Shown here piece by piece: positions 3,814 through 29,054 of a stretch of DNA of 41,904 nt (the stretch's first letter is position 1; each line of letters begins with the position of its first letter). The stretch lies in NCBI GenBank assembly GCA_944331935.1, contig CALVIV010000006.1, positions 1 through 41,904 of the forward strand, given 5' to 3'. The DNA is from an uncultured Bacilli bacterium. GTDB taxonomy: Bacteria; Bacillota_I; Bacilli_A; RF39; UBA660. Made by a program: the position numbers and the translations under genes. A model generated the notes under the pieces. That model made no database searches. It saw only the letters and a list, made by a program, of their open reading frames with translations, and was not told the origin of the DNA.

Positions 3814-5883
3814 CTAATTCTCTTCAGATACGGCTTTACTTGCCTCTTCTTCACTATTAGGATTAAATAAGTCAAAGACAATTGCTTTATTAGAAACATC
3901 TAATAGTTTTTCAGCATATTCATTATTCTCTTTTATGTAGTTTTCATCGATTATTTCGTCTTTAAGTAGCTTATACTCACCTTTTTGACTGTTATAATAC
4001 ATCTTGTCTGTTACCCAGTTACCATTAGGAAATACTACAATATTGTTTTCTTTGGTTTCAAAAATATCATGTCCTAAAGCATATTTGTTATAGAAGCCTA
4101 ACATATTACCAATTGTAGGCATTACATCATACATACCCATTGTATAATCATATTGACCTTTAACTGCACCATCCTTTGTCCAGATTATAAGTGGCACTTT
4201 ACGGTCTAATTCATAATCGAAACTATCATACTCTACATATGTAGGGTCATCTTTATCTTTAATATCATCAGTGGCCGGGTCATAATTATACATTAAGTTA
4301 AATTCACTTCTAGGAAGTCTTGCATCATGGTCTCCAAATATGATTACAACAGTATTATCTAAAAGACCTGCTTCATCCATTTCACTAAAGAACTCTCCTA
4401 AAGCAGCATCAGCATAATGAACTGATTTAAAGTAGTTACCTAGTTTAGTGCCCTCTAAGTATGGAGCTTCTACTTCTTCTGTTGTACCATCTTCATTAGT
4501 TATAGTTGTTTTCATGGTAACAGGGAATTCTCCATATTTATCAGTATCAGAGAATGGAGTATGGTTTGTAAGGGTAATGATATAACCATAATATTTATCA
4601 TGTTCTTTACTTATTTTCTTTAACTTTTCTACTGATTGGGCAAAGAATGATTTATCAGATAACCCTAGTCCAATAATATTATCTTTATCAACATCATATG
4701 TTTCTTTACTATAGAACTTATCATATCCTAAAGACTCATGCATAGCTCTTCTATTCCAGAAGTCAGCGTTATTAGCATGCATACTGAAAGTATAGTAGCC
4801 TTTTTCTTTAAGTAAAGATGGTGTTGAGATATAAGTTCTATCAAAGTAACTTACGAAAGCGGTACCATTTTGGGTTGGCATTAGACTTGTATTATAAGTT
4901 AATTCAGTATCACTACTTGTTCCTACACTAACCTGAGAATAGAAATTATCAAAGTACATTCCTTCTTTAATCAATCTATTTAAATTAGGAGTTACTTCTT
5001 CGCCATTAAAAGTTCTATTAATAGCGATTCCTTGCATTGATTCAGCATGGATTACAATAACATTACGTCCTTCAAGAACATTAGTATATTCATTTGTATA
5101 ATCTTGTTCATTAGGTCTATCTTTGTAATACTCAGTAAATTCTTTCTTAGCATCGTCATAACCAAACATGGCAGATATTTGTGGTCTTATACTGGCGACA
5201 ATATCATTTCCTTGATATAAGTAAATACCAAATCTCATAACTATATATTCTCTATTCCATTGTTTAACAAATCTACTTATTTCTAGACTTGATAGAGAAA
5301 CTATAAATAAGACAAGTATAATTGCACCTGTTATAATAGTATTTTTAAACTTCTTAAGTCTTTTTTCTTTAGTATAGATTTTATATTTATCTTTTTTAGC
5401 AAGACGATGATAGTAATAGATGAAGAAAATAAGAGGAAATATATAGACTAAGTCTTTTATCTGTAAGACATTTTCTACAACTGCATCCCCTACTTCACCA
5501 ATATATTGGGTAAGAGATAACATAGATACACTTGCAAATGATGTATAGAATGTATAATAAGCAGAGTTAATTGTACAAATTGCTGTAAAGATAATGGCCC
5601 ATACTAGTAGATAAACATATCTTTTCTTTCCTTTAAAAAGGTACGAAAAAGAACCAATAATAGTAACAACTGCTATATCTGCGACAATAGGTTTAAAAGA
5701 TAGATAGTTCTCCATTGTCGGCATCGTAAATATTCTTAGTAATGTAGAATTTAGAACACACACTAAAACATAGACAAGAAAAAGTCTATTATCTTTAAAA
5801 TAATTACTTATCATCTTTTCTTCTTTTATTCTTTTTAAATTTTTAATAATTTTATCTTTGAATTTAGTTAATTTTTTCTTCAT
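3814..5883 (-). CDS. LTA synthase family sulfatase-fold enzyme
   Basis: 689 aa. The N-terminal part (about 30-200) has five hydrophobic helices. The extracellular sulfatase/alkaline-phosphatase-fold domain starts with NVIVIHAES (metal ligand Glu281). The catalytic Thr is probably Thr322 in GTSSDTEL, equivalent to the GKTSD-type site of LtaS. FGDHDARL and HTPFSD supply further metal-site residues. LtaS enzymes polymerise glycerol phosphate from phosphatidylglycerol on the outer membrane face; other members act as LTA primases or phosphoglycerol transferases. The neighbouring sortase and adhesin genes fit a cell-envelope cluster. Which subtype it is cannot be decided here. Confidence 0.88.
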   Translation of the reverse strand: MKKKLTKFKDKIIKNLKRIKEEKMISNYFKDNRLFLVYVLVCVLNSTLLRIFTMPTMENYLSFKPIVADIAVVTIIGSFSYLFKGKKRYVYLLVWAIIFTAICTINSAYYTFYTSFASVSMLSLTQYIGEVGDAVVENVLQIKDLVYIFPLIFFIYYYHRLAKKDKYKIYTKEKRLKKFKNTIITGAIILVLFIVSLSSLEISRFVKQWNREYIVMRFGIYLYQGNDIVASIRPQISAMFGYDDAKKEFTEYYKDRPNEQDYTNEYTNVLEGRNVIVIHAESMQGIAINRTFNGEEVTPNLNRLIKEGMYFDNFYSQVSVGTSSDTELTYNTSLMPTQNGTAFVSYFDRTYISTPSLLKEKGYYTFSMHANNADFWNRRAMHESLGYDKFYSKETYDVDKDNIIGLGLSDKSFFAQSVEKLKKISKEHDKYYGYIITLTNHTPFSDTDKYGEFPVTMKTTITNEDGTTEEVEAPYLEGTKLGNYFKSVHYADAALGEFFSEMDEAGLLDNTVVIIFGDHDARLPRSEFNLMYNYDPATDDIKDKDDPTYVEYDSFDYELDRKVPLIIWTKDGAVKGQYDYTMGMYDVMPTIGNMLGFYNKYALGHDIFETKENNIVVFPNGNWVTDKMYYNSQKGEYKLLKDEIIDENYIKENNEYAEKLLDVSNKAIVFDLFNPNSEEEASKAVSEEN

Positions 5884-5914
5884 AATAACCTCACTTCCTA
5901 GACATTATATCATT

Positions 5915-6496
5915 TTACTTTGTATTTTTCAATTTACTATGTCTAATATAACAAAAATGATAGATTGCTTTGTAAAGTATTAGTATTATAAAGATAATCT
6001 GGCTAAATAAAACTATTATAAACATATTATCATGTTGATAGATATTAGCAGTATTTGTTAAAGAAGTATTATTAGTAATCGCTAGTGATATAAAATTAGT
6101 AAATAAGTATAGATGGATAAGGGTAAGTACATAAGTAATAATTTTATTTAGTTTAGTTAGATTATTTTTTAAGATAGTATATATTAGTATAACTAAAGAG
6201 ATTATCGCTGTTAAAATATAAAAGACAATATTAGGAAAATAGAAACATCTCATAATAGTTTTAACAATTTCACTTAGAACTGTTATTATATCTTCTGAAA
6301 AATAAAAGGCTAGTAAGGAAAAGAAAAAGATTATGAGTGCAGTTATAGCATATTTAACTTTCTTATTTTGTCTTTTTTCATTGTATATTAAAAATATAAG
6401 AATAAGAAGGAATATTAAAAGTATTTCAATCGTTAAAAAAGATTGAAAGGGAAGAGTTATAAATGTTATTAATTTCTCTATTATACTTAAGTCCAT
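5915..6496 (-). CDS. multi-pass membrane protein, unknown
   Basis: 193 aa from the ATG at 6496. The upstream ATG at 6502 sits only 3 nt after AAGGAG, whereas 6496 gives a normal 8-9 nt spacing. It has about five hydrophobic helices with short charged loops and a basic C-terminus. It lies between the sortase gene (15 nt gap by the upper start) and the LTA-synthase-family gene. The family is not recognised; the position suggests an envelope-related role. Confidence 0.7.
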   Translation of the reverse strand: MDLSIIEKLITFITLPFQSFLTIEILLIFLLILIFLIYNEKRQNKKVKYAITALIIFFFSLLAFYFSEDIITVLSEIVKTIMRCFYFPNIVFYILTAIISLVILIYTILKNNLTKLNKIITYVLTLIHLYLFTNFISLAITNNTSLTNTANIYQHDNMFIIVLFSQIIFIILILYKAIYHFCYIRHSKLKNTK

Positions 6497-6517
6497 AAAC
6501 ATTTCTCCTTTTTATTC

Positions 6518-7171
6518 TTATATTTCTTCAAAGATATAGATTGTTTGATTATAATCATCATTATGAGTACATGTAATTAATGTTAAGGTTTTAACATTAG
6601 GATTACGATAGATTGCCACTGTTCCTGTCTTAGCTTGATTATAGATATTAGTCAAGCGATAATTATAGGTAACAGCATTATAACTAACACTAGCTTCATC
6701 ACCTATTTGTAATTTATATAGTTTATCAAAGAATGATATATAGGCATTACCTGAGTGAGCCATAAGGATAAAGTTACCTAGGGGAACATCAGGATAATTA
6801 GCTTCATTAGCGACTGTTATATTATACTCAATATTATTATAGCGAGATTCTTTAGAAACAAAACCTCTTCTAAGTTTTATTTTAGGAATTGATAATTCTC
6901 CAATATATGAGTAATTAGCTTTTTTATCATTTGCTTCTGCTTGCTCAGTATTTTCAGAAGTTACTTCTAAGTTTTCAGTATTTACATTGTTAATAGTTGT
7001 GTTATTAGTTTCATTAATATTTAATTGAAATATTGCAAGTCTCATTTCTTCAAAGACTTCTTCTTTTAATTTCCTTAAAGGTGTACTTATAAATACTAGT
7101 ATTCCTACGATAAGGAAGAAAAAGCCAACTTTAAAGAGTTGGCTTTTTAAGTTTTTACTTTTTCTTTGCAT
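6518..7171 (-). CDS. sortase (surface-protein transpeptidase)
   Basis: 217 aa. One N-terminal membrane helix (about 10-30) and an acidic, Asn-rich linker lead to the sortase barrel, which begins IGELSIPKIKL. The catalytic His is in LMAHSGN and the Cys in LTLITCTHND. The protein ends about 15 residues after that Cys (NDDYNQTIYIFEEI) and has no Arg there, where sortases usually carry the third active-site residue. The ATG at 7171 overlaps the end of the adhesin gene by 17 nt, so translation is probably coupled; a TTG at 7192 is possible but has no good ribosome site. Its likely substrate is the adjacent adhesin with a VPNTN sorting signal. Confidence 0.88.
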   Translation of the reverse strand: MQRKSKNLKSQLFKVGFFFLIVGILVFISTPLRKLKEEVFEEMRLAIFQLNINETNNTTINNVNTENLEVTSENTEQAEANDKKANYSYIGELSIPKIKLRRGFVSKESRYNNIEYNITVANEANYPDVPLGNFILMAHSGNAYISFFDKLYKLQIGDEASVSYNAVTYNYRLTNIYNQAKTGTVAIYRNPNVKTLTLITCTHNDDYNQTIYIFEEI

Positions 7172-27086: not shown

Positions 27087-27102
27087 TAGTCCTTACGGAC
27101 TA
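27087..27102 (-). other. stem-loop with GTAA tetraloop at the variable-region end
   Basis: On the minus strand TAGTCC-GTAA-GGACTA: a 6-bp stem with a GNRA-type tetraloop containing the stop codon TAA. Diversity-generating retroelements need such a small hairpin just downstream of the variable region. There is no T-run directly after it, so it is not a standard terminator. Confidence 0.65.
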
Positions 27103-28958
27103 GGGCTCATCACGAGGCGAAACGAGCCGTTACTGCCACTAACACCAATATGCTGACCGAAGTTAAATACACCAGCACCAGAACTACTACTATAATATAT
27201 ACCGCCGCGCAACAACCAGGAATATGTCTCGTTAACCGTGTTGTGATAGTCATTATACCATCCTGCTGTCTCACTCAATCCATGACTTAGACATATGCTT
27301 CCATTACATGCTGTATTTACATCACTTGTTATATATTTATCATAATATTTTGATTCTGGCATTGTTAGAAAACCACTTTCACTTATTACATCATTATAAT
27401 TTGCCATTACATATTCCCATGATCCTCCACTCATATCATAGACTCCATAAATATTTCCTGTTGTTGAAGCTCCTGTTCCACTTACATTTACATCATAGGT
27501 ATATTGACATCCATAATCTGTGTTAGCATTTGATGGGCTTCCATAACTACAGCCTGTTATATAACTATCTGATTTATTTTGATATACTTCTTTATTCGCT
27601 CCACTAAAATTATCATTTCCTAACTTTCCATATTTACTTTGAGATAAATATGCTACTATTGCCCACTCGCTATTTTTCATCATATGAGTATCTGTACTAC
27701 TACTAAAGCCATATCTATTTCCACTATCATTCATCTTTTGGGCTACTGCAAAAGCATTACTTACATTTATATTTCTCCAACTTGTTACATTTGGTTTTAT
27801 CATTGCATCTAAGCTTGTAGTGTTATCTCCTCCATTTTCTGCACTTGGATTACTACTACTTGTCTCAAACTTTCCTACCCAGATTCCACTTAGTTCTTCA
27901 TCACCAAACGTAAAAGCATCTGGAGTATACCAGCTATTATCTTCAATTCCTGAACTAACTAAATATTTGGCAGTTCCTCTATCTTTAGTTGAAGTTGATA
28001 CAAATTTTACATCTATCTCTCCTGGTAATGCTTGAGTAGGACTACTACTTAAATAATCTCCCTGTTTCCCATAATAATTTGTTCCATCTTCACTACCTAT
28101 TGTGTAACTATATCTTGGGATCCAGACCCACATCGTCTCTATATCATCCATACTTACTACTGTACCTACACTTGCATTCTTATATGTATCTCTTGTAGAA
28201 CTACTTACTGTTACAGCATTGGCCCATTCCTGTTTATCATAGTTATACCAGTTATTTGTACTACCATCTGCTTTTACCCAGTTACTTCCATCATATCTCA
28301 CTGCAATCATTCCACTATCTAACTCTGGTTCGTTTATTTGAACTGGGGCAACTGCACCATCTAATCCATAGACATTTATCCTTACACTAAACTCTAAATT
28401 TCCTCCATCTCCTTGAGGATTATAATCTTCATCAACCCACATTCTAAGTCTATAATTATTACTTTCACTTGAGTTCATACTACTTGTATATAAACTCATC
28501 TCTCCTGCTGGTCTTCCTGTATATGAGTTACTACTTATTTCTTCATTATAGACTTCTGGTGTCATTAACTCTTCTTCTCCGTCATCTGTCAATCTTGTTA
28601 AATATAACTTTATATTAGAACCATCTATCTTTCTAACACCACTATCTGTTACATCCTTTGCACTTATCTCATAATTTATATTTGTATCTCCTGTTATATT
28701 ACTACTTACTGTAAAATCAAAGTACTCTCCTTGATTTAATCTTGTTTTACCTGTTTTATCTGTTGTTGGTAAGGCTCCTGTTAAAGATATTGTATTACTT
28801 GTTTCTGTATAAGTCATAGTAATAGATCCTGTTGTTATAGTATTTACTTTAGTTCCTAATCCACTATAATTAAATGCAGCCCAACTTACTCCTATTATTG
28901 CTATTACCATTATTACTAATAATACTATTATTACTATATTTTCTTTTTTCTTAAACAT
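27093..28958 (-). CDS. surface protein with FGE/C-type-lectin-like end, probable DGR target
   Basis: 621 aa from the ATG at 28958. The N-terminal signal helix ends near GVSWAAFNYSG. A beta-rich domain like TasA/camelysin follows (VNTITTGSITMTYTE, later NYRLRMWVDED). The C-terminal half has MWVWIPRYSY, GIWVGKFETSS, GVYDMSGGSWEYV and WLLRGGIYYSSSSGAGVFNF, ending NGSFRLVMSPSP. This is the formylglycine-enzyme-like C-type-lectin fold used by DGR variable proteins. The last ~120 nt are about 50% GC against about a third elsewhere. The terminal codons are mostly NNT or NNC where adenine mutagenesis of AAY would act, and rare codons (CGC, CTC, TCG) mark the invariant end. No reverse transcriptase or template is in the window. 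Confidence 0.75.
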   Translation of the reverse strand: MFKKKENIVIIVLLVIMVIAIIGVSWAAFNYSGLGTKVNTITTGSITMTYTETSNTISLTGALPTTDKTGKTRLNQGEYFDFTVSSNITGDTNINYEISAKDVTDSGVRKIDGSNIKLYLTRLTDDGEEELMTPEVYNEEISSNSYTGRPAGEMSLYTSSMNSSESNNYRLRMWVDEDYNPQGDGGNLEFSVRINVYGLDGAVAPVQINEPELDSGMIAVRYDGSNWVKADGSTNNWYNYDKQEWANAVTVSSSTRDTYKNASVGTVVSMDDIETMWVWIPRYSYTIGSEDGTNYYGKQGDYLSSSPTQALPGEIDVKFVSTSTKDRGTAKYLVSSGIEDNSWYTPDAFTFGDEELSGIWVGKFETSSSNPSAENGGDNTTSLDAMIKPNVTSWRNINVSNAFAVAQKMNDSGNRYGFSSSTDTHMMKNSEWAIVAYLSQSKYGKLGNDNFSGANKEVYQNKSDSYITGCSYGSPSNANTDYGCQYTYDVNVSGTGASTTGNIYGVYDMSGGSWEYVMANYNDVISESGFLTMPESKYYDKYITSDVNTACNGSICLSHGLSETAGWYNDYHNTVNETYSWLLRGGIYYSSSSGAGVFNFGQHIGVSGSNGSFRLVMSPSP

Positions 28959-29054
28959 ATAAAACACATCCTTACTTCTATCTTGTCCAAAATAATTATT
29001 TATTATACTTATACCTTTGTAATCATCTATTTCCCCAATCTTTTATCTATTACA

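Follow-up and report, generated by a model that had tools for sequence, protein, structure and literature searches.

A tandem template array with a candidate stop template in a diversity-generating retroelement, and a probable remote target gene in the same Bacilli genome

We examined a window of 41,904 nt (the whole stretch of DNA analysed here) from an uncultured Bacilli bacterium, whose genome (G000) is, like all of the genomes compared, metagenome-assembled, with 92% completeness in 83 contigs. At the end of one minus-strand gene of the window, the following features were annotated.

27093–28967, minus strand: target gene, the 624-aa product of which is membrane-anchored and ends in an FGE/C-type-lectin-like domain (from the ORF, a subthreshold Pfam match and phmmer)
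27202–27208, minus strand: 5′ anchor GCGGCGG, the start of the variable region (VR), in common with the templates
27126–27201, minus strand: variable core of 76 nt, in which NNY codons predominate; cognate template not found
27106–27125, minus strand: GC-rich homing tail (IMH-like) TCGTTTCGCCTCGTGATGAG, with one mismatch to the template consensus
27087–27102, minus strand: target-only hairpin TAGTCC-GTAA-GGACTA, with the stop codon inside

The 624-aa protein has a membrane segment at its N-terminus. Its C-terminal domain matched Pfam FGE-sulfatase at 17.4 bits, under the cut-off of 23.3, and in phmmer matched 5VF4, which is TaqVP, a solved variable protein of a diversity-generating retroelement (DGR), with an E-value of 0.0011; the AlphaFold model of the domain had a pLDDT of 29, too low for use. 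The last 123 nt of the gene (27093–27215) had a G+C content of 0.47, where the gene as a whole has 0.34 and the window 0.27; only 0.05% of equal-length stretches in the window attained such a value, and 24 of the 27 codons in the variable stretch ended in C or T, compared with 46% in the remainder of the gene. The tail GCTCGTTTCGCCTCGTGATGAGC is translated as SFRLVMS, and the stop codon TAA lies within the hairpin, which has a 6-bp stem and a GTAA loop. The original prediction, made from the sequence alone, had pointed to this G+C-rich coding end, to the predominance of NNT and NNC codons and to a stop codon within a 6-bp GTAA hairpin, and each was borne out by these counts; it had also held that a surface protein ends here in a probable DGR variable region, which agrees with a homing tail, anchor and hairpin that match those of a DGR in the same genome. 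By its homing tail, NNY-rich variable stretch and hairpin, the region 27087–27215 on the minus strand was thus confirmed, at the level of sequence, as a true DGR target site. The gene is one of 11 paralogues in G000.

The 20-nt tail occurred nine times in G000 with up to three mismatches, while its reversed control did not occur at all, and its recurrence is therefore far beyond chance. These copies comprised three genes (in the window, on contig C53 and on contig C1) and six non-coding copies on contig C1. Across the genus, 22 of 41 target genes but none of 72 template copies had a 5-bp stem closed by a GNRA loop 3′ of the tail, and the stem of the target hairpin showed a compensatory change between genomes G008 and G025. 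At one locus (L105, G004:C52), the tail and hairpin were almost directly joined to an N-terminal membrane segment; either this target has lost much of its interior by deletion, or the assembly is wrong here.

The locus on contig C1 (L014), which has the tail, 5′ anchor and hairpin in common with the window gene, was arranged on the minus strand in the following order.

13093–11213, minus strand: adjacent target gene
between target and templates, opposite strand: flavin reductase/rubredoxin-like gene
10165–8333, minus strand: six template-like repeats
8207–7812, minus strand: Avd
7827–7161, minus strand: DGR-type reverse transcriptase (RT)
5242–7160, minus strand: group II intron

Avd matched the NCBIfam DGR-Avd model NF033474 at 81.9 bits (cut-off 80) and PF22296 at 2.5e-22. 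RTs were classed as DGR-type by the presence of [ILV]GxxxSQ and YxDD, and the C1 RT, 353 aa when spliced in silico, contained LPIGNYTSQ and YMDD. The gene is split after YMD-G by the intron, which matched Rfam RF02005 at 138.8 bits and RF00029 at 52.6 bits and has its own maturase ORF; reading from exon to exon restored YMDDFIMF. The RT was uninterrupted, with 79–93% identity, in nine sibling genomes, including Candidatus Onthousia faecipullorum and Ca. O. faecavium. Introns closely related to that at L014:5242–7160 (minus strand, G000:C1) were found at the identical point, the second Asp codon of YMDD, at L136:1337 (G009:C20) and L137:1209 (minus strand, G011:C17), in two different kinds of DGR-type RT gene, which suggests a mobile intron that homes to the catalytic motif of the RT. 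A viral origin was rejected, as neither the RT nor the tail was found in IMG/VR.

Tandem template arrays of 3–26 modules per RT were found between the adjacent target and Avd/RT in nine genomes of the genus (with Candidatus Onthousia), these being the genomes with sufficient contig around the RT. Each module, usually spaced at 310–400 bp (a unit of about 330 bp), consisted of a promoter-like element, a template repeat (TR) with anchor GCGGCGG, core and tail, and an RT-14-like structured RNA. The promoter-like element, TTGTTT-N16-TGTTAAYTTT-N8-GGGARAAACTT, was recognised upstream of the TR in 45 of the 72 modules; the putative promoters were identified by resemblance to the consensus, and a sigma-70 scan of the array gave no excess over shuffled sequences. 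Ordinary TR cores were 73–91 nt long, and all 65 were open in the VR frame with a length of 1 mod 3. In the spacer RNA, seven of 28 predicted pairs had compensatory changes on both sides. The RT-14 model (RF02921) scored the array spacers at 21–43 bits, below the curated cut-off of 48.1, which was exceeded in G005 (89.9 bits); in other genera of the family, RT-14 RNA lay directly 3′ of a single TR at, near or above the cut-off (L140–L143). The DGRs of those genera were ordinary, with one TR and with TR/VR mismatches almost all at template adenines, and within the sensitivity of the searches run, multi-hit template clusters were confined to this genus. The Rfam RT-14 RNA is thereby accounted for: it is the spacer RNA that immediately follows DGR templates. 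An ATPase-like ORF of 442 aa (L088:1321–3036) was inserted between modules 3 and 4 of G002. The idea that new templates arise from archived VRs was considered and rejected, with no convincing TR–TR pair differing at adenines only.

Adjacent VRs were aligned to own-genome templates with tolerance for adenine changes, giving seven cis pairs; the other two arrays, of G032 and G028, have 11 and 5 modules.

G000: module 6 of 6, 7 adenine and 1 non-adenine changes
G014: module 20 of 26, 5 adenine and 0 non-adenine changes
G015: module 2 of 6, 17 adenine and 0 non-adenine changes
G012: module 3 of 5, 11 adenine and 0 non-adenine changes
G008: module 3 of 3, 14 adenine and 1 non-adenine changes, and one 3-nt deletion
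G025: module 3 of 3, 15 adenine and 0 non-adenine changes
G002: module 2 of 5, 13 adenine and 0 non-adenine changes

Pooled over these pairs, 82 of 190 TR adenines were changed versus 2 of 353 non-adenine positions (Fisher test, 5e-41). Every adjacent target had one own-genome template at 0–1 non-adenine mismatches, with runner-up templates at six or more, and since the matched modules vary by species, orthologous adjacent targets differ in the array position that they fit. The C1 locus, with its type of RT, Avd, adenine mismatches between TR and VR, homing tail and target-side hairpin, is on these sequence features classed as a DGR. Between G008 and G025, which were 99.2% identical over 6.4 kb, 18 of 51 differences fell within the 76-nt VR (P = 4e-22), and between G000 and G028, identity was 98.5–100% from a point 5′ of the VR as far as module 4, dropping to 81% in the VR bin, where each VR fitted its own array. 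Both comparisons show recent rewriting of the VR, and this hot spot between close genomes is an indirect sign that the C1 DGR may be active in mutagenic retrohoming. The target-to-module-4 segment itself (L090:4400–7200 versus L014) was 98.5–100% identical between two species whose surrounding sequence differs by about 10%, and is taken as a recent exchange of array DNA.

In seven of the nine arrays, the first module was a short, T-rich and adenine-poor cassette with in-frame stops. The cores of these cassettes were 66–70 nt long with 9–18% A and 0–1 AAN codons, all seven contained in-frame stops, and they were alignable across seven species and followed by a spacer RNA type of their own. The adjacent VR of G028 was identical to its stop cassette (68/68), and that of G032 differed from its own by one A-to-G change and one extra T; in both, the target protein ended directly after the RGG motif while 584–586 upstream codons were open. 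A simple assembly artefact is made less likely for these two VRs by the A-to-G difference and by flanks specific to the target. We infer from these sequences that the first module may truncate the target and so act as an OFF template. Across species, the stop cassettes (L014:10089–10158 and orthologues) kept a stretch like TTCTTTKTTGCTCTATTT, beyond the need for stop codons.

The main rival to the OFF-template reading is that the stop cassette is a degenerate, dead template captured by accident, as its variation in length between species, with a reading frame that is not kept, and the ordinary cores at the first position in G008 and G025 would allow. We consider this unlikely, given that the stop cassette is always the first module, that its spacer RNA and core are conserved across the seven species, and that it is present in the VR of two distant species with the upstream frame intact. 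It is less probable still that every array template serves a single target of its own, with one TR for one VR as in some phages, leaving no cassette choice. Such pairing is known from the multi-TR DGR of the Lera phage (PMC12386605), and each genome has several more tail-bearing targets; however, the module that the orthologous adjacent target fits is 1, 2, 3, 6 or 20 depending on the species, only the VR differs strongly within the nearly identical region of G000 and G028, and no remote G000 target fits an array template of its own genome.

The template of the window gene was sought in the same way. Its VR differed from the best own-genome template (of six in the assembly) at 11 of 45 non-adenine positions and, at 9 of 45, from the closest among the 72 templates in the genus, none of which fitted at the non-adenine positions. 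The C53 VR had no template match either, and none of the remote VRs of G000 and G002 fitted an own-genome template as closely as the adjacent VRs do. Two remote targets in other genomes matched templates known only from the arrays of other species, G009:C5 with changes at 18 of 26 adenine and 0 of 47 non-adenine positions and G034:C88 at 12 of 25 and 3 of 54, respectively, so that remote targets were at one time rewritten by such templates. A distant RT and template repeat had been predicted for the window gene; Avd, RT and templates do lie on contig C1, but none of the six templates is its own, and the proposed genome search for a template copy beside a DGR RT likewise yielded a DGR-type RT with templates but no cognate one. 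As no match was found among the templates of the assembled genome and of its sampled relatives, the further claim that the gene is now diversified in trans stands unproven. On a fair reading of the sequences, the window feature is very probably the VR of a remote target, present or former, of the template-array DGR on C1 of the same genome, with a template that may be unassembled or lost.

As to its present state, we give about an even chance to a frozen former target, for which the template was lost or rewriting ceased and which evolves now as an ordinary paralogue. Eight of the 11 paralogues in G000 are already without the GC-rich tail and hairpin, the tail of the window gene has TTT for TTC, a substitution absent from the templates of G000, and turnover of array content is seen between close species, even though the tail and hairpin of the window gene are still almost intact. 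This near-perfect tail, anchor and hairpin would suit an active trans target with its own template in the unassembled part of the genome, as a further array piece or an orphan module, and we regard this as possible but somewhat less probable than a frozen target. The assembly is incomplete and fragmented, and arrays of repeats are hard to assemble; G002:C9 has an orphan template module, and G009:C5 and G034:C88 illustrate targets with templates seen only elsewhere. Against it, the spacer pattern and the RT-14 model located only the six array places in the G000 assembly and revealed no second module, and the remote VRs of G000 and G002 lack the close own-genome fit of the adjacent VRs.

For the array, the following mechanism is proposed. 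The group II intron would have to splice out of the G000 RT for a working enzyme. The promoter-like element of each module would drive transcription of that module; the RNA at its 3′ end, which stands where known DGRs have their spacer RNA, would recruit RT–Avd, and the mutagenized cDNA would replace the VR of the target, so that cassette choice and adenine hypermutation would be combined. The adenine-poor first module, with stops in the VR frame, would truncate the target and set it to OFF until it is overwritten by another module. With one RT and a template library that includes a stop template, the surface protein could therefore be rewritten, swapped or switched off, and the window gene would retain the landing site for a template absent from the assembly. 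On balance we lean towards such a template-library DGR with a reversible OFF switch, in which a growing tandem library of independently transcribed modules serves one RT–Avd and a surface receptor is both swapped and hypermutated; a single retroelement would then unite hypermutation with phase variation and the switching of cassettes.

In silent-cassette antigenic variation, such as that of pilin (pilS/pilE) and vlsE, one expressed site is rewritten from a library of silent copies. The arrays resemble this in that a library of copies rewrites one site, but the agent here would be a mutagenic reverse transcriptase and not gene conversion alone. With the BPP-1-type DGR of a Bordetella phage they share Avd, an RT with GxxxSQ, adenine-only TR/VR changes, a GC-rich homing tail, a hairpin after the VR and a structured spacer RNA after the TR (PMC3240598, PMC12875486), the requirement for the hairpin and the role of the spacer RNA having been reported in PMC3240598 and PMC12875486, respectively. 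That system has one TR, whereas 3–26 tandem TR-plus-spacer modules and a stop template are found here, and its hairpin loop is GRNA, in contrast to GTAA on a 6-bp stem. Multi-VR DGRs are common, and DGRs with 2–6 TRs per RT have been reported (PMC6642488, PMC12386605), including those of the Lera/ct1yV3 crAss-like phages and Stenotrophomonas sp. SKA14; these likewise have more than one TR per RT, but Lera pairs each TR with its own VR (PMC12386605), and a tandem modular array competing for one VR or a stop template is not described there. The trans-acting DGRs of Thiohalocapsa PB-PSB1 also have targets far from the RT, which unlike the window VR fit a remote TR at all non-adenine sites (PMC10907252). 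The RT-14 RNA (RF02921) matches the RNA 3′ of single TRs in related genera and that of most array TRs weakly, the array spacers being a divergent subtype below its cut-off. In the literature searched, where subscription journals were thinly covered, no description of a tandem template array, of template choice at one VR or of a stop template was found.

Known DGRs explore sequence around one or a few templates, and a library of up to 26 scaffolds per RT multiplies the accessible space and adds cassette switching; if the stop template works as proposed, it would also add an on/off state that is absent from purely adenine-mutating systems. The natural, interchangeable template modules could make template choice by RT–Avd directly testable. 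Further DGR-type RTs also occurred in the genus (L138, L139 and L024), with LPIGNYTSQ in 317 aa and LAIGNVTSQ in 368 aa, and at least one of them adjoined an adenine-biased repeat pair.
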